Shown piece by piece: positions 49,893 through 55,228 of a DNA stretch of 64,000 nt. The DNA lies in the NCBI RefSeq assembly GCF_021728415.1, contig NZ_JAKKDV010000003.1, positions 186,001 through 250,000 of the forward strand, in the 5' to 3' direction. Both the position numbers and the translations under genes were made by a program. The number at the start of each line of letters is the position of its first letter. Position 1 is the first letter of the stretch. The stretch is from Flaviramulus multivorans (GTDB taxonomy: Bacteria; Bacteroidota; Bacteroidia; Flavobacteriales; Flavobacteriaceae). Under the pieces are notes generated by a model that saw only the letters and a program-made list of their open reading frames with translations, was not told the origin of the DNA and did not search any database.

Positions 49893-50525
49893 ATGATACA
49901 GGAACTTAAAAGCAATTACGGACATTTATTTGAAGAAGCACTTTTAAATGAAATTAATCAGGTTGGTACTTATAAAGAAGTGAGTGAAGGTTCTAAATTA
50001 ATGGATATTGGGGACTATATTAAAGCAATGCCCCTCTTAGTGTCGGGTGCTGTAAAAATTTTAAGGGAAGATAATGATGGTGATGAACTCCTACTCTATT
50101 TTTTAGAAAAAGGTGATACTTGCGCCATGACATTAACTTGCTGTATAGGTCAAACAAAAAGCGAAATAAGAGCTATTGCTGAAAAAGACACAAAGCTTAT
50201 CATGATACCCATTCAAAAAATGGAAGAATGGTCTTCTAAATATAAAAGTTGGAGGAATTTTGTATTTAACAGCTATCATAACAGGCTAAATGAAATGCTT
50301 GAAACTATAGATAGTATTGCCTTTTTAAAGATGGATGAACGTCTTTTAAAATACCTTAATGAAAAAGCCCGAGTTTCTGATAATAACATTATTAATAATA
50401 CGCATCAGGAAATAGCTTACGAACTACATACATCCAGGGTTGTTATCTCTCGGTTACTTAAAAAACTGGAAAATTTAGGTGAAATCGAACTGCACAGAAG
50501 TCATATTGTGATTAAAAATATATAG
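49893..50525 (+). CDS. Crp/Fnr family regulator with a cysteine cluster, likely sulfur-responsive
   Basis: This 210-residue protein has a cyclic-nucleotide-type beta-barrel domain (about 25-120), a dimer helix (about 125-150) and a C-terminal winged helix-turn-helix with TSRVVISRLLKKLE as recognition helix. Three Cys (Cys77, Cys83, Cys84 in GDTCAMTLTCC) sit where cAMP would bind, and no Arg-Ser phosphate cassette is seen. Thiol or persulfide sensing is therefore more likely than cAMP. It is the only transcription factor in the sulfur block, and Crp-like dyads stand before each following plus-strand transcription unit. No copy of the dyad precedes its own start. Confidence 0.88.
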   Translation: MIQELKSNYGHLFEEALLNEINQVGTYKEVSEGSKLMDIGDYIKAMPLLVSGAVKILREDNDGDELLLYFLEKGDTCAMTLTCCIGQTKSEIRAIAEKDTKLIMIPIQKMEEWSSKYKSWRNFVFNSYHNRLNEMLETIDSIAFLKMDERLLKYLNEKARVSDNNIINNTHQEIAYELHTSRVVISRLLKKLENLGEIELHRSHIVIKNI

Positions 50526-50533
50526 CTTTTGTT

Positions 50534-50578
50534 TGTAACCTATGTTACTGTACAGACAACACCAACAACTTAATTTTG
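50534..50578 (+). promoter_or_regulatory. Crp/Fnr-type operator plus -7 box, site 1 (TauE gene)
   Basis: GTAAC-CTAT-GTTAC (50535-50548) is a perfect dyad with centre 50541.5. TAATTTTG (50571-50578) is an exact TAnnTTTG box beginning 29.5 bases from the centre. This puts the dyad near -41.5, a class II activation position. Confidence 0.75.
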
Positions 50579-50602
50579 CCATAAATAAAGAAGATTTATT
50601 TT

Positions 50603-51400
50603 ATGGAAATTATAGAAATTGTAGGTTTTATTGGTGCCTTCGTTATTGGTACGGTGCTTGGACTTTTGGGTGGCGGCGGATCCATTTTAACCGTACCCTT
50701 ATTGGTATATCTATTAAGCTACAATCCTATAATTGCTACTTCATATTCACTATTTGTAGTCGGCTCATCTTCTGTCGTTGGAGTTATTCAAAAACAGCGT
50801 GAAAAACTAGTAGATTTTAAAACTGGATTAGCCTTTTCATTTCCATCCTTTTTAGCTGTTTATGCTTCCAGAAGATACTTGGTTCCTAATATTCCAAACG
50901 AAATTTTTACGCTATTTGATTTTACTCTTACTAAAAACATGGCTATCATGGTGTTTTTTGCAATTATCATGCTTGTTGCAGCGGCTTCGATGATAAACAA
51001 TAATAAAACACATGAAACCCCATTTACAAAGCAACCCTATTACAAAACTTTTATACAAGGACTTATAATAGGAACAACAACAGGTTTAATTGGCGCGGGT
51101 GGTGGATTTTTATATGTTCCTGCATTAGTACTTTGGGCAGGATTAACAATGAAAAAAGCAGTAGCAACCTCCTTAGTTATAATAGCTATTAACTCAATTA
51201 TTGGGTTTATTGGTGATTTACATACCTTGGATATTGAGTGGGTATTTCTCCTTTCATTTTCAGGTTTAACCATTTTTGGAATATTGGTTGGTGGCTATTT
51301 TTCAAAGTTTATTTCAAATAAAGAATTAAAGAAATGGTTTGGTTTCTTTATACTAGTTATGGCTATTTATATTATTATTAAAGAAGTGTCGCAAAAATAA
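50603..51400 (+). CDS. TauE/SafE family sulfite/sulfur-anion exporter
   Basis: This 265-residue membrane protein of the TauE/SafE family has about eight helices. The two family loops VLGLLGGGGSILTVPLLVYLL and TGLIGAGGGFLYVPALVLWAG, in the N- and C-terminal halves, show the internal duplication. Members export sulfite, sulfoacetate or similar anions. It is the first structural gene of the sulfur block and has its own dyad operator. The likely cargo is sulfite made by the downstream persulfide dioxygenase, as in comparable BigR-type operons. Confidence 0.88.
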   Translation: MEIIEIVGFIGAFVIGTVLGLLGGGGSILTVPLLVYLLSYNPIIATSYSLFVVGSSSVVGVIQKQREKLVDFKTGLAFSFPSFLAVYASRRYLVPNIPNEIFTLFDFTLTKNMAIMVFFAIIMLVAAASMINNNKTHETPFTKQPYYKTFIQGLIIGTTTGLIGAGGGFLYVPALVLWAGLTMKKAVATSLVIIAINSIIGFIGDLHTLDIEWVFLLSFSGLTIFGILVGGYFSKFISNKELKKWFGFFILVMAIYIIIKEVSQK

Positions 51401-51402
51401 AT

Positions 51403-51447
51403 AGTAACTTTTGTTACTGATTATTTTTTATATATAAATTATATTTA
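51403..51447 (+). promoter_or_regulatory. Crp/Fnr-type operator plus -7 box, site 2 (persulfide dioxygenase gene)
   Basis: AGTAAC-TTTT-GTTACT (51403-51418) is a perfect 16-base dyad with centre 51410.5. TATATTTA (51440-51447), TAnnTTTG with one mismatch, begins 29.5 bases from the centre, exactly as at site 1. Confidence 0.72.
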
Positions 51448-51466
51448 CTAAAATTTTACTATCGTT

Positions 51467-52876
51467 ATGAAAATCGAACAAATATATACTGGTTGTTTAG
51501 CACAGGGAGCTTATTATATAGAAAGCAAGGGTGAAGTTGCTATTATAGATCCTTTAAGAGAAGTGAAGCCATATATTAATAGAGCCAAATTAGATGATGC
51601 AAAAATTAAATATATTTTTGAGACTCATTTTCATGCTGATTTTGTAAGTGGTCATGTAACACTTTCCAAAAAAACAGGCGCTCCAATTATATTTGGTCCA
51701 AATGCTGAAACCAACTTTGATGCTATTATTGCTAAAGATGATCAAGAATTTAAACTAGGTGATGTTACTATAAAAGTACTTCATACGCCTGGGCATACTA
51801 TGGAAAGTTCTGTGTTTTTATTAAAAGATGAAAACGGAAAAGACCATGCTATTTTTAGTGGTGACACCTTGTTTTTAGGTGATGTTGGTCGTCCAGATTT
51901 GGCACAAAAAATGGGAGAACTTACAGAAAAAGATTTGGCTGGATTTCTATTTGATAGTTTAAGGACCAAAATAATGCCTTTGGCAGACGATGTAATTGTA
52001 TATCCGGCTCATGGCGCGGGTTCTGCTTGTGGTAAAAACTTAAGCAAAGAAACTGTTGATACTCTAGGAAACCAAAAGAAAACCAACTATGCACTTCGTG
52101 CAGATATGACTAAAGAGGAGTTCATAGATGAAGTCACCGAAGGTTTGTTACCTCCTCCACAATACTTTCCATTAAATGTAAAAATGAACAAGGAAGGTTA
52201 TGATGATTTTGATAAAGTATTACAGCGAAGTGCACAAGCACTAACACCAGAAGCATTTGAAACTGCTGCAAATGAAACCGAAGCCGTAGTATTAGATGTT
52301 CGCCATCAAGATGATTTTGCCAAAGGCCACATACCACGTTCTATTTTTATTGGATTAGAAGGAGGTTTTGCACCGTGGGTTGGAGCATTAATTGCTGATG
52401 TAAAACAACCTATTTTATTAGTAACACCAGAAGGTCGTGAAGAAGAGACCATAACACGTTTATCTAGAGTTGGTTTTGATTATGTAATAGGATATTTAAA
52501 AGGTGGTTTTGAAGCTTGGAAAAATACTTCGAAAGAATATGATACAGTTAGTTCTCTTCCTGCATCAGCATTAAAAAAGGCAAAAGATGATGGTGAGGTT
52601 TCTGTATTCGATGTTAGAAAGAATGGTGAATATTTATCTGAGCATGTTATTAATGCAAATAACACACCTCTTGATTATATTAATGATTATTTAGCTGAAT
52701 TTCCAGATAATAAAACATTTTTTATACACTGTGCTGGAGGCTATAGAAGTATGATAGCTGCATCTATTCTGAAAAGCAGAGGTATTCATAACTTAATTGA
52801 TATAAAAGGGGGATTTAAAGCTATAAAGGAAGCTGGTGTTGAGGTATCAAATTATGTTTGTCCATCAACATTATAA
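51467..52876 (+). CDS. CstB-like persulfide dioxygenase fused to two rhodanese domains
   Basis: This 469-residue fusion has a metallo-beta-lactamase persulfide-dioxygenase domain (about 1-235; THFHADFVSGH at 53-63 and the LHTPGHTMES and GDTLFLGDVGRPD stretches). An inactive rhodanese domain follows (about 260-360; the Cys loop reads LVTPEGR) and then an active one (about 370-465; Cys422 in HCAGGYRS). The same order is known from Staphylococcus aureus CstB, which oxidises persulfides to thiosulfate with non-haem iron. Cytoplasmic. It is preceded by its own dyad operator and followed at once by a rhodanese lipoprotein gene. Confidence 0.9.
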   Translation: MKIEQIYTGCLAQGAYYIESKGEVAIIDPLREVKPYINRAKLDDAKIKYIFETHFHADFVSGHVTLSKKTGAPIIFGPNAETNFDAIIAKDDQEFKLGDVTIKVLHTPGHTMESSVFLLKDENGKDHAIFSGDTLFLGDVGRPDLAQKMGELTEKDLAGFLFDSLRTKIMPLADDVIVYPAHGAGSACGKNLSKETVDTLGNQKKTNYALRADMTKEEFIDEVTEGLLPPPQYFPLNVKMNKEGYDDFDKVLQRSAQALTPEAFETAANETEAVVLDVRHQDDFAKGHIPRSIFIGLEGGFAPWVGALIADVKQPILLVTPEGREEETITRLSRVGFDYVIGYLKGGFEAWKNTSKEYDTVSSLPASALKKAKDDGEVSVFDVRKNGEYLSEHVINANNTPLDYINDYLAEFPDNKTFFIHCAGGYRSMIAASILKSRGIHNLIDIKGGFKAIKEAGVEVSNYVCPSTL

Positions 52877-52886
52877 ATTTAAACAG

Positions 52887-53249
52887 ATGAAATATATTTT
52901 AATGATGTCTATATTCTCTTTCTTGTTTAGTTGTAATACACAGCAATCCGATAATATTGTCACACTTGACAAAAACACTTTTAAATCTGAAATAGAAGAG
53001 AGAAAAGTTGTTTTAGTAGATGTTAGAACGCCAAAAGAGTTTGAATCTGGTCATATAACAGATGCTATTAATATTAATTTTTATGACACTAAAAAATTTG
53101 TATCGTCTTTTAATAAGCTAAACAAAGAAGAGCCGGTTTATTTATACTGCCGTTCTGGAAAACGAAGCTTAAAAGCAGCAAAACGATTAGATAGTCTTGG
53201 GTTTAAAAAAATATATGATCTTAAAGGTGGGTATTTAGACTGGAACTAA
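52887..53249 (+). CDS. Rhodanese-domain lipoprotein
   Basis: From ATG 52887 the protein is 120 residues with a lipoprotein signal (MKYILMMSIFSFLFSCN; the Cys follows LFS). The ATG at 52836 lies inside the previous gene and would spoil the signal. One rhodanese domain follows, with VDVRTPKEFESGHI and the active-site Cys in LYCRSGKRS. It transfers sulfane sulfur, here probably on the periplasmic side of a membrane. It starts 10 bases after the CstB-like gene and is surely in the same transcript, so sulfur handling would occur on both sides of the membrane. Confidence 0.88.
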   Translation: MKYILMMSIFSFLFSCNTQQSDNIVTLDKNTFKSEIEERKVVLVDVRTPKEFESGHITDAININFYDTKKFVSSFNKLNKEEPVYLYCRSGKRSLKAAKRLDSLGFKKIYDLKGGYLDWN

Positions 53250-53252
53250 AAT

Positions 53253-54137
53253 TTAATTAATGTCTTTTTTTCTTTTAAAAAACCCATACGTATTTTGACT
53301 CAAAAAATCTTTTGGAAACTTCTCGTCTCCTGAAAATCCTAACTCTATTTTTCCACTGTCTTCAGGAATGTAATTAGTTTTAAAAATATAGTCCCATAGG
53401 CTTAAACTGATACCAAAATTCACTCCATATTTTCCTTCCGGTAAATTATAAGCATGATGATACAAATGCATCACAGGATTATTTATAATATATTTAAGTG
53501 GTCCCCAAGTTATTTTTATGTTGGAATGATTGAAATGTCCTATTGCTATGGCTAAAAAATGAATAATATAGGCTTGTTCGGGTTCGAATCCAAACAATAT
53601 CATAACCCCAAAAGTTTTCAATGGCTTGTATAAAATATTTTCCATCCAATGGTAACGTAAATGAGCAGCAAAACCCATTTCTTTTACACTGTGGTGTACT
53701 TTATGAAATCTCCAAAAAAGCGGAAACTTATGTAAAAGTATATGTGTAAACCATTGCACAAAATCGAGCACAATAAAGAAAACTAATAATTGTATCCACA
53801 TAGACCATTCAGAAGGGTCGAAAAGCGCTATGGTTTTATTTGTTATTCCAATATTTTCAAAAATTTCTTGTAATACTTTATAAAAACCACTTATTGCAAT
53901 TGAAAAAATGAAAAAATTAAAGAACATATAAAACCCATCCAGCCAAAAATCTTTTCTAAAAATAGACTGCTCCTTCCTCCAAGGAAACAATATTTCTAAA
54001 ACCCAAACGAATAATGAAATCAAAATCAAGCCCCAAAAATAATTAGTATACCAAGGCACCTCAAAAGCAATAGATTTCCAAGTCCAATCTATTGTTCCAT
54101 AAAAAGCATTAACAAAAGCATTAATATATTTTTCCAT
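53253..54137 (-). CDS. Sterol desaturase/fatty acid hydroxylase superfamily protein
   Basis: This 294-residue membrane protein has four or five helices and the histidine boxes of the di-iron hydroxylase superfamily: HILLHK, FHKVHHS, and HLYHH. Members hydroxylate or desaturate lipids or carotenoids with O2; bacterial ones rarely act on sterols. It is the only gene on the minus strand within the sulfur block, converges with the rhodanese gene 3 bases away, and is divergent from the YeeE gene, sharing the region with dyad site 3. The substrate is unknown. Confidence 0.88.
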   Translation of the reverse strand: MEKYINAFVNAFYGTIDWTWKSIAFEVPWYTNYFWGLILISLFVWVLEILFPWRKEQSIFRKDFWLDGFYMFFNFFIFSIAISGFYKVLQEIFENIGITNKTIALFDPSEWSMWIQLLVFFIVLDFVQWFTHILLHKFPLFWRFHKVHHSVKEMGFAAHLRYHWMENILYKPLKTFGVMILFGFEPEQAYIIHFLAIAIGHFNHSNIKITWGPLKYIINNPVMHLYHHAYNLPEGKYGVNFGISLSLWDYIFKTNYIPEDSGKIELGFSGDEKFPKDFLSQNTYGFFKRKKDIN

Positions 54138-54186
54138 ACTAAAATGTAATAGGGAGTAATTATTCTATAAAATTCAATATTATTGT

Positions 54187-54230
54187 GTAACATATGTTAC
54201 TGCATGAATTATAAAAAACAATTTTATTTG
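54187..54230 (+). promoter_or_regulatory. Crp/Fnr-type operator plus -7 box, site 3 (YeeE/YedE gene)
   Basis: GTAAC-ATAT-GTTAC (54187-54200) is a perfect dyad with centre 54193.5. TTTATTTG (54223-54230) begins 29.5 bases from the centre with an exact TTTG in the same register as sites 1 and 2. No matching box is seen towards the desaturase gene. Confidence 0.72.
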
Positions 54231-54250
54231 CAAACTTAAATATAAAAATA

Positions 54251-54808
54251 ATGAATTGGATATTTGAACCTTGGCCATGGTATGTTTCTGGCCCTATGAT
54301 AGCATTAATCATGTTTTTACTTATTATGGTTGGTAAAAATTTTGGAATGTCGTCTAACCTAAGAACCATGTGTGCTCTCTGCGGTGCAGGAAAACATTCT
54401 GATTTTTTTAAGTTCGATTGGAAATCTCAAAAATGGAATTTAATGGTTGTGCTTGGTGCCATTATTGGTGGTTTTATTGCTTCTCATTACTTAACTAATG
54501 ATTTCGCGGTCAATATTAATCCTGATACCATTACAGAATTAAACACCTTAGGCTTTAAAAGTGCTGGTAAATCTTATTTACCAATTGAATTGTTTGATGC
54601 CGATGCGTTTACAGATATTAAAAGCTTACTTATATTATCAATAGGTGGTCTTTTAGTTGGTTTCGGAACGAGGTATGCTGGTGGTTGTACCTCTGGTCAT
54701 GCTATATCAGGTTTAAGTAATCTACAATTACCATCATTAATTGCTGTAATGGGGTTTTTTATAGGTGGCTTGGTGATGATTCATTTTATTTTCCCTTTAA
54801 TTTTTTAA
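54251..54808 (+). CDS. YeeE/YedE family sulfur-transport protein, N-terminal half-type
   Basis: This 185-residue membrane protein with four or five helices contains the YeeE/YedE hallmark RYAGGCTSGHAISG, whose Cys is of the kind used to relay thiosulfate in the YeeE (TsuA) channel. It is half the size of full YeeE and is followed 3 bases later by a second half-type gene, so the two probably form one transporter, as PmpA/PmpB-type pairs do. It likely carries thiosulfate or another sulfur species across the inner membrane. Dyad site 3 stands 50 bases before its start. Confidence 0.88.
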   Translation: MNWIFEPWPWYVSGPMIALIMFLLIMVGKNFGMSSNLRTMCALCGAGKHSDFFKFDWKSQKWNLMVVLGAIIGGFIASHYLTNDFAVNINPDTITELNTLGFKSAGKSYLPIELFDADAFTDIKSLLILSIGGLLVGFGTRYAGGCTSGHAISGLSNLQLPSLIAVMGFFIGGLVMIHFIFPLIF

Positions 54809-54811
54809 GCT

Positions 54812-55228
54812 ATGGCAAGAACAGTTATTTATTTATTGATAGGAATTGTATTCGGGATAACCATGTTTAAATCTGAAGCTGCATCTTGGTTTCGAATTTA
54901 TGAAATGTTTAAATTTCAATCCTTCCACATGTATGGCATCATAGGCTCAGCTTTAGTAATAGGAATTATCGTTATTCAAGCAATAAAACGTTTTAAAATT
55001 AAGTCAATTTACAATGAAGACATTAAGTTCATTCCAAAGGATAAAGGAATTACTCGGTATTTAGCAGGCGGGATAATTTTTGGCCTAGGTTGGGCGTTAG
55101 CAGGTGCATGTCCAGGTCCCATGTTCACTCTATTGGGCGCAGGCTTTTTGCCTATTTTAATAGTGATATTCTTTGCGATAGTTGGCACTTATATATATGG
55201 AGTAATTAAAGATAAACTACCTCATTAA
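54812..55228 (+). CDS. YeeE/YedE family sulfur-transport protein, C-terminal half-type (DUF6691)
   Basis: This 138-residue membrane protein with four helices has the signature GWALAGACPGPMFTLLGAG, the second half-type YeeE/YedE motif with a conserved Cys before PGP. It follows its partner after 3 bases, the tightest coupling in the block. Together the two give a split YeeE-like carrier for sulfur compounds. The stop is followed by a strong bidirectional hairpin that closes the sulfur block before the tRNA genes. Confidence 0.87.
   Translation: MARTVIYLLIGIVFGITMFKSEAASWFRIYEMFKFQSFHMYGIIGSALVIGIIVIQAIKRFKIKSIYNEDIKFIPKDKGITRYLAGGIIFGLGWALAGACPGPMFTLLGAGFLPILIVIFFAIVGTYIYGVIKDKLPH

Follow-up and report, generated by a model that had tools for sequence, protein, structure and literature searches.

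Positions 49893 to 55228 of a 64,000-nucleotide stretch of the Flaviramulus multivorans genome (contig NZ_JAKKDV010000003.1; hereafter the window, to which all coordinates refer) hold a gene for a Crp/Fnr-family protein together with genes for sulfur transport and sulfur oxidation. Judging from the arrangement of sites and genes, this block very probably forms a regulon for the detoxification of sulfide and sulfane sulfur under a single Crp/Fnr-type activator with class II promoter geometry; the regulator, the operator, the geometry and the regulon are well supported by computation. In the mechanism we propose, a dimer of the regulator would bind the palindrome T-GTAAC-N4-GTTAC-TG centred at −41.5, where the site extends into the region of the −33 element, and would act there as a class II activator of sigma-A transcription. 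Three units would be driven in this way, namely the TauE exporter, the CstB-like persulfide dioxygenase with a rhodanese, and the YeeE/YedE pair of sulfur transporters. The signal would be persulfide, polysulfide or sulfide, possibly read by Cys77 with Cys83 and Cys84 in the loop where cyclic AMP (cAMP) binds in CRP.

Three exact GTAAC-N4-GTTAC dyads, each followed by TG, are present at 50535, 51404 and 54187, where a sequence-only reading of the window had placed them, and the −7-type box that it had described as starting 29.5 bases from the dyad centre (22 bases past the dyad) was found at all three sites (Table 1). These are the only exact matches in the 3,278,864 bases of the genome and all fall within 3.7 kilobases, compared with seven matches to a reversed control pattern. 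The box is perfect at only one of the three sites and matches 5/6 positions at the other two; boxes of at least 5/6 occur at ~1.3% of window positions, and the chance that the three window dyads would share any one of 61 box offsets is ~1.4 × 10−4.

The same register is kept in relatives, which were represented by two sets of loci: 40 loci around homologues of the regulator in other genomes of the order (drawn from 35 genomes, five of which gave two each), which with the window make 41, and 80 named loci around related regulators, found by peptides including SRVV[VI]SRLLK and ..G[DE]TC. The sets overlap at one locus each (L209 and L039). The first set contained 50 distinct exact dyads in 29 of its 41 loci, with a box (at least 5/6) at the 22-base gap in 42 of the 50, and the 80 named loci contained 207 exact dyads in 78 loci, 189 of them with the box at this gap. 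Three of the 189 have a box on both sides, giving 192 orientations; when all 414 orientations were scored, the remaining gaps had 5 on average and 17 at most. Dyads with spacers of 2, 3, 5 or 6 bases numbered at most three in the same 80 loci, and with the letters of the half-site reordered the median was 0 and no count exceeded 9. Among all 5-base-pair inverted repeats with a 4-base spacer and a box, counted by orientation, GTAAC came first (192) and ATGAT next (10). A position profile of the 192 showed T before the dyad in 90% and TG after it in 63%/60%; the TG noted at all three window sites is thus only a preference in relatives, at a position 20 bases before the −7 box, where the −33 element of the promoter would be. 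Dyads of the ATGAC-N4-GTCAT and ATGAT types were also seen at the 22-base gap (L144:13815, L144:13970, L034:84, L034:241 and others), some of them ~150 bases or less from a GTAAC dyad, and are perhaps operators of further Crp/Fnr activators.

A class II activator occupies a site centred near −41.5. According to the available part of PMC9723704, the TAnnTTTG box of sigma-A promoters in Flavobacterium psychrophilum occupies positions −12 to −5; because the box begins at −12 and the dyad centre lies 29.5 bases upstream of its first base, the dyad is centred at −41.5. The position near −41.5 predicted from the window therefore holds, provided that the spacing between start and box matches that of F. 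psychrophilum, and it applies to the 189 of 207 dyads that carry the box at the fixed gap. From this position, the regulator would be expected to activate rather than to repress.

The link between the operator and the Crp/Fnr protein is strongly supported by conservation, by co-occurrence and by covariation of recognition helix and operator. The search for co-occurrence of operator, box and Crp/Fnr orthologue that had been proposed with the initial description was carried out on 60 genomes, F. multivorans included, and gave the predicted outcome. A full site (dyad plus −7 box, at most one mismatch in all) was present in 35 of 36 genomes with a close orthologue (match at E ≤ 4 × 10−61; 137 sites, against 13 for the reversed control), in 3 of 11 genomes with a weaker regulator match (one site each), and in 1 of 13 with no match (Fisher P=1.8 × 10−9 for 35/36 versus 1/13). 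Across 296 genomes of the phylum, 79 had a match. These were all 30 genomes from the family, 1 of the 6 remaining ones from the order, 21 of the 37 remaining in the class and 27 of the 223 from other classes, where all but one matched singly and the reversed control gave about 36, which is chance level. Dyad plus box is specific within the family and at chance level outside the window's class. The GTAAC dyad without the box was rejected as a genome-wide marker; exact dyads counted regardless of the box numbered 0 to 11 per relative genome, and in many genomes the reversed control was as frequent or more so.

Covariation was assessed at residue 183, within the recognition helix SRVVISR (residues 181–187). 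Beside the genes of the 126 regulators with Val183, the dyad was GTAAC in 73, mixed in 3, of another type in 10 and GTGAC in 0, with none in 40; the number of Val183 proteins is inflated by the SRVV search peptide, and the adjoining operators are unselected. Beside the genes of the 15 regulators with Glu183, it was GTGAC in 3, mixed in 2, of another type in 1 (GTGAT/GTGAC) and GTAAC in 0, with none in 9 (P=1.4 × 10−5 for 73 versus 3, a value which, as with the Fisher test, overstates independence because the loci share descent). Some sister paralogues with Glu183 and without the Cys83–Cys84 pair have GTGAC-N4-GTCAC dyads just downstream in the same −7 register, before genes for YgaP-like transmembrane proteins (L283:1984-2027 and L291:2366-2409; L297 and L289 on the minus strand, the L289 dyad being a mixed GTGAC/GTAAC). 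At the six Glu183 loci with an adjoining dyad, the first gene encodes a YgaP-like membrane protein in four, a heme protein in one and a protein without family match in one, and this sister branch may also have a sulfur role.

The regulator falls within the Crp/Fnr superfamily by both of its domains (PF00027, 35.2 bits against a cut-off of 27.5; PF13545, 35.5 bits against 27), its predicted structure returned the Crp/Fnr fold in fold searches, and it has exactly three cysteines, at 77, 83 and 84, in agreement with the initial description. Its scores lie below the NCBIfam cut-offs for CRP (PRK11753, 57.9 versus 266 bits), FNR (PRK11161, 22.6 versus 228 bits) and, by a wide interval, NtcA (TIGR03697, 37.1 versus 244.95 bits). 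FNR has four cysteines including an N-terminal cluster, whereas Cys77, Cys83 and Cys84 are the only ones of the window protein. NtcA of cyanobacteria, which senses 2-oxoglutarate and controls nitrogen genes, has in alignment a similar recognition helix of the form Arg-Val..(Ser/Thr)-Arg, and its operator GTA-N8-TAC is contained in GTAAC-N4-GTTAC. E. coli CRP at class II promoters is alike in fold, in helix-turn-helix and in a site centred at −41.5; unlike it, the window protein is only 24% identical and differs at Gly71, Glu72 and Arg82, which we take to be the cAMP-contact residues of CRP, its operator is GTAAC-N4-GTTAC and its promoters carry the Bacteroidota −7 box. In the CRP alignment, the loop with Cys77, Cys83 and Cys84 coincides with the cAMP-binding loop. 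The AlphaFold2 model has a mean predicted local distance difference test score of 89, lowest over residues 71–90, and no Cys–Cys distances were taken from it because the cysteine loop has the lowest confidence. Within the block, to which the scan was confined, no regulator of the BigR type was recognized, the Pfam hits of its one regulator being to cNMP_binding and HTH_Crp_2 alone.

The initial interpretation is supported in part, and its suggestion that this protein senses thiols is a hypothesis that requires one correction. Cys77 occurs in 141 of 141 homologues (favoured by the search peptide in the 80 named loci, unselected in the other 61) and is not specific to the regulon, because paralogues with a different operator have it too, whereas the Cys83–Cys84 pair tracks the GTAAC-type helix (115 of 126 Val183 proteins have it, against 1 of 15 Glu183 proteins). 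The use of all three cysteines as a mark of the regulon was corrected accordingly, Cys77 being generic and the pair going with the helix. This pattern is consistent with a thiol sensor but is no proof of one, and the available part of PMC7315123 reports a Crp-like protein of Acinetobacter baumannii that is highly persulfidated in sulfide-treated cells, which we count for the thiol reading.

The gene families behind the sites support the assignment of the predicted regulon to sulfide and persulfide. A census of 120 loci and the window by relaxed criteria gave 320 sites, 289 with an open reading frame (ORF), and the first genes were CstB (69), TauE (49), YeeE (25), rhodanese (22), DUF983 (19), the regulator (17), peroxiredoxin (15), SulP (11), outer-membrane efflux (8), SQR-like (6), CydA (5) and several smaller families, as assigned by Pfam and NCBIfam; those most often seen act on sulfide, persulfide, sulfite or thiosulfate. 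Among the genes of the 80 named loci, 51 of 65 CstB, 35 of 44 TauE and 15 of 18 YeeE genes are preceded by a full site, compared with 7 of 538 other ORFs and with 0 of 17 YedE genes, which follow YeeE. Some further families were defined on the ground that members had a site, which makes their counts partly circular: peroxiredoxin 14/14, DUF983 17/19, SulP 7/13, outer-membrane efflux 5/5, SQR-like 3/4 and SorA-like 1/3. Outside the regulator locus, first genes were labelled for 46 sites on 40 hand-picked stretches, either with Pfam or with BLAST against representatives assigned before, and sulfur-type genes stand behind 20 of the sites (rhodanese-bearing 6, CstB 3, DsrE 2, thioredoxin 2, and one each of YeeE, SorA-like, TauE, SulP, SQR-like, DUF302 and YgaP-like). 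The others are outer-membrane efflux (8), DUF983 (3), HMA (2) and one each of fatty-acid hydroxylase, Mrp-type, MFS and the heme protein HTHP, with 9 of the 46 lacking a family label or an ORF; one of these 9 opens a stretch that encodes two SoxB-like proteins, which fall short of the SoxB cut-off. The SQR-like and SorA-like proteins score below their NCBIfam cut-offs.

Among individual loci, L259:1496-5327 has a GTAAC site before genes for two SoxB-like proteins and a thioredoxin-like protein, and at the opposite end an HMA gene and a Tll0287-like gene follow another site. TolC-like outer-membrane efflux genes, whose substrate may be copper, a sulfur compound or something else, repeatedly have a full site (L243, L257, L263, L264, L271, L275, L277 and L281), and a small DUF983 protein with CxxC motifs is encoded at L200:2793-3185 and at 18 other loci.

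Several results weigh against the proposed regulon under one Crp/Fnr activator. Exact dyads are missing from 12 of the 41 loci of the first set and from 2 of the 80 named loci, the box is missing at the 22-base offset for 18 of the 207 dyads, one genome (G059) has the orthologue and no full site, and 40 of the 126 Val183 loci have no such dyad beside the regulator. To these are added the shared descent of the loci and the peptide search behind the 80 named loci, which favours both Val183 and Cys77, and 11 of the 126 Val183 proteins, some of them beside sulfur genes, lack Cys83–Cys84. Coverage of the proposed members is partial: full sites precede 17 of 43 rhodanese genes in the 80 named loci and, by partly circular counts, 2 of 7 CydA, 3 of 21 HMA, 2 of 14 cytochrome c and 0 of 6 HemN genes, HemN not being counted as regulated although 5 of the 6 have an exact dyad upstream. 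The regulator itself is preceded by a full site in 15 of the 80 named loci and by no dyad in the window, and general autoregulation was rejected. Finally, DUF983, outer-membrane efflux and HMA genes carry sites without a clear sulfur role.

Other readings of the same sites were weighed against activation by this protein. The regulator could be a repressor that leaves its operators on persulfidation, as CstR and BigR are described to be repressors in the available parts of PMC7315123 and PMC9774590. A repressor would tolerate varied spacing, whereas the 29.5-base register is exact in 189 of 207 dyads and fits, together with the centring at −41.5, a class II activator; because the register is fixed, we judge repression to be quite unlikely, and FisR, another reactive-sulfur regulator, is described as an activator. 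That another Crp/Fnr paralogue binds the dyads, the linked gene being a bystander, is highly improbable. An initial scan did give 13 candidate regions in the own genome, and relatives have several Crp/Fnr paralogues, but co-occurrence, adjacency and the covariation of Val183/GTAAC versus Glu183/GTGAC beside each regulator gene point to the linked protein, which is moreover the single match at E ≤ 1 × 10−20 in the own genome. The low box-independent counts of exact dyads, in many genomes below the reversed control, are what chance dyads in AT-rich intergenic DNA would give; clustering, register and conservation contradict such an origin, which was rejected on register and conservation and has negligible probability.

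For the signal, we propose a new class of sulfane-sulfur sensor, a proposal that in our estimate is evenly poised between right and wrong: a Crp/Fnr activator whose cyclic-nucleotide pocket would have turned into a Cys-X5-Cys-Cys persulfide switch and which, in Flavobacteriaceae, would directly switch on a full sulfide-oxidation regulon from −41.5, while a sister branch (Glu183, GTGAC-N4-GTCAC) would control YgaP-like membrane proteins. It is possible, if on the doubtful side, that the same activator and regulon respond to another signal, either a small molecule held non-covalently in the pocket, such as thiosulfate, a low-molecular-weight thiol or its persulfide, or an Fe–S cluster or a metal such as copper on the cysteines. 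The commonest families behind the sites, which handle reactive sulfur, argue against such a signal, as does the presence of only three cysteines per subunit, none of them in the N-terminal arrangement of FNR. Its case is made by the universality of Cys77, which extends to the paralogues with another operator, by the HMA and outer-membrane efflux genes of the wider regulon, which could be for copper handling, and by the action of glutathione on the Crp-family proteins Vfr and PrfA (in the available part of PMC7315123).

Table 1. Genes, operators and −7 boxes of the candidate regulon in the window.
Feature	Coordinates	Strand	Details
Crp/Fnr-family regulator, 210 amino acids	49893..50525	+	Pfam cNMP_binding and HTH_Crp_2 above gathering cut-offs
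Codons of Cys77 (50121-50123), Cys83 (50139-50141) and Cys84 (50142-50144)	50121..50144	+	
Operator 1, GTAACCTATGTTAC	50535..50548	+	Exact dyad; 9 bases past the regulator stop codon, before TauE
−7 box TAATTTTG	50571..50578	+	6/6; 22-base gap from operator 1
TauE/SafE-family exporter, 265 amino acids	50603..51400	+	Pfam TauE, 4.4 × 10−41
Operator 2, GTAACTTTTGTTAC	51404..51417	+	Exact dyad; before the CstB-like gene
−7 box TATATTTA	51440..51447	+	5/6; 22-base gap from operator 2
CstB-like metallo-beta-lactamase / rhodanese-like / rhodanese protein, 469 amino acids	51467..52876	+	Pfam Lactamase_B, two Rhodanese stretches
Rhodanese protein, 120 amino acids	52887..53249	+	Pfam Rhodanese, 5.5 × 10−22; downstream in the CstB-like unit
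Fatty-acid-hydroxylase-family gene within the sulfur block	53253..54137	−	Pfam FA_hydroxylase
Operator 3, GTAACATATGTTAC	54187..54200	+	Exact dyad; before the YeeE/YedE pair
−7 box TTTATTTG	54223..54230	+	5/6; 22-base gap from operator 3
YeeE-like half transporter, 185 amino acids	54251..54808	+	Pfam Sulf_transp, 7.4 × 10−18
YedE-like half transporter, 138 amino acids	54812..55228	+	Pfam DUF6691, 2.2 × 10−10; Sulf_transp, 5.4 × 10−10

BigR is an ArsR-type regulator, and neither BigR nor SqrR belongs to the Crp/Fnr family. The dedicated sulfane-sulfur regulators named in the available parts of PMC7315123 and PMC9774590 are CstR, BigR, SqrR and FisR, none of which is a Crp/Fnr protein. In A. baumannii, FisR controls PDO1, SQR and TauE, BigR controls yeeE/yedE/pdo2, and sulfide upregulates CydAB (same part of PMC7315123), so that a comparable gene set is divided between FisR and BigR there. 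Genes of these kinds also follow the flavobacterial sites. FisR, however, activates with sigma-54 and BigR represses, whereas the combined flavobacterial set is apparently under one Crp/Fnr protein at a sigma-A promoter. The cst operon of Staphylococcus aureus similarly has genes for a persulfide dioxygenase, SQR and TauE under one reactive-sulfur regulator (PMC7315123), but that regulator, CstR, is a repressor of the CsoR family that has a dithiol site (PMC9774590) and the window protein is a Crp/Fnr protein with a Cys-X5-Cys-Cys loop. A1S_1182 of A. baumannii is likewise Crp-like, and its regulation by persulfidation has been suggested as a possibility; of uncharacterised role, it is closely related to Crp/Vfr and has its cysteine opposite the ligand pocket, and the available part of PMC7315123 describes no sulfide regulon or operator for it.

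A Crp/Fnr regulator of these sulfur genes was not found in any report within the open-access literature searched, and the novelty initially suggested for the arrangement rests on that literature. What appears to be new is that a sulfide/persulfide regulon has a regulator from a different family and a promoter geometry that fits activation. If this is true, a single regulon in which a Crp/Fnr activator governs the oxidation of sulfide, the handling of persulfide and sulfite and the transport of sulfur would account for the way in which many flavobacteria cope with sulfide. Furthermore, the arrangement gives a precise, testable promoter rule (the operator, 22 bases, then TAnnTTTG) for bacteria about whose transcription activators little is known.

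With regard to the remaining features of the block, the CstB-like protein combines the metallo-beta-lactamase and rhodanese domains (Pfam) expected of a CstB persulfide dioxygenase, for which it is a candidate, and its best sequence matches in the PDB, 3tp9 and 3r2u, extend over ~full length. The 120-residue rhodanese that follows it has a lipoprotein-like N-terminus, as judged by eye from the sequence. The fatty-acid-hydroxylase-family gene is probably a bystander in the window, where no full site (at most one mismatch) faces it and operator 3 reads in its direction only at 3 mismatches; homologues are present in 15 of the 80 named loci, with a full site upstream of 4 of the 11 genes scored.

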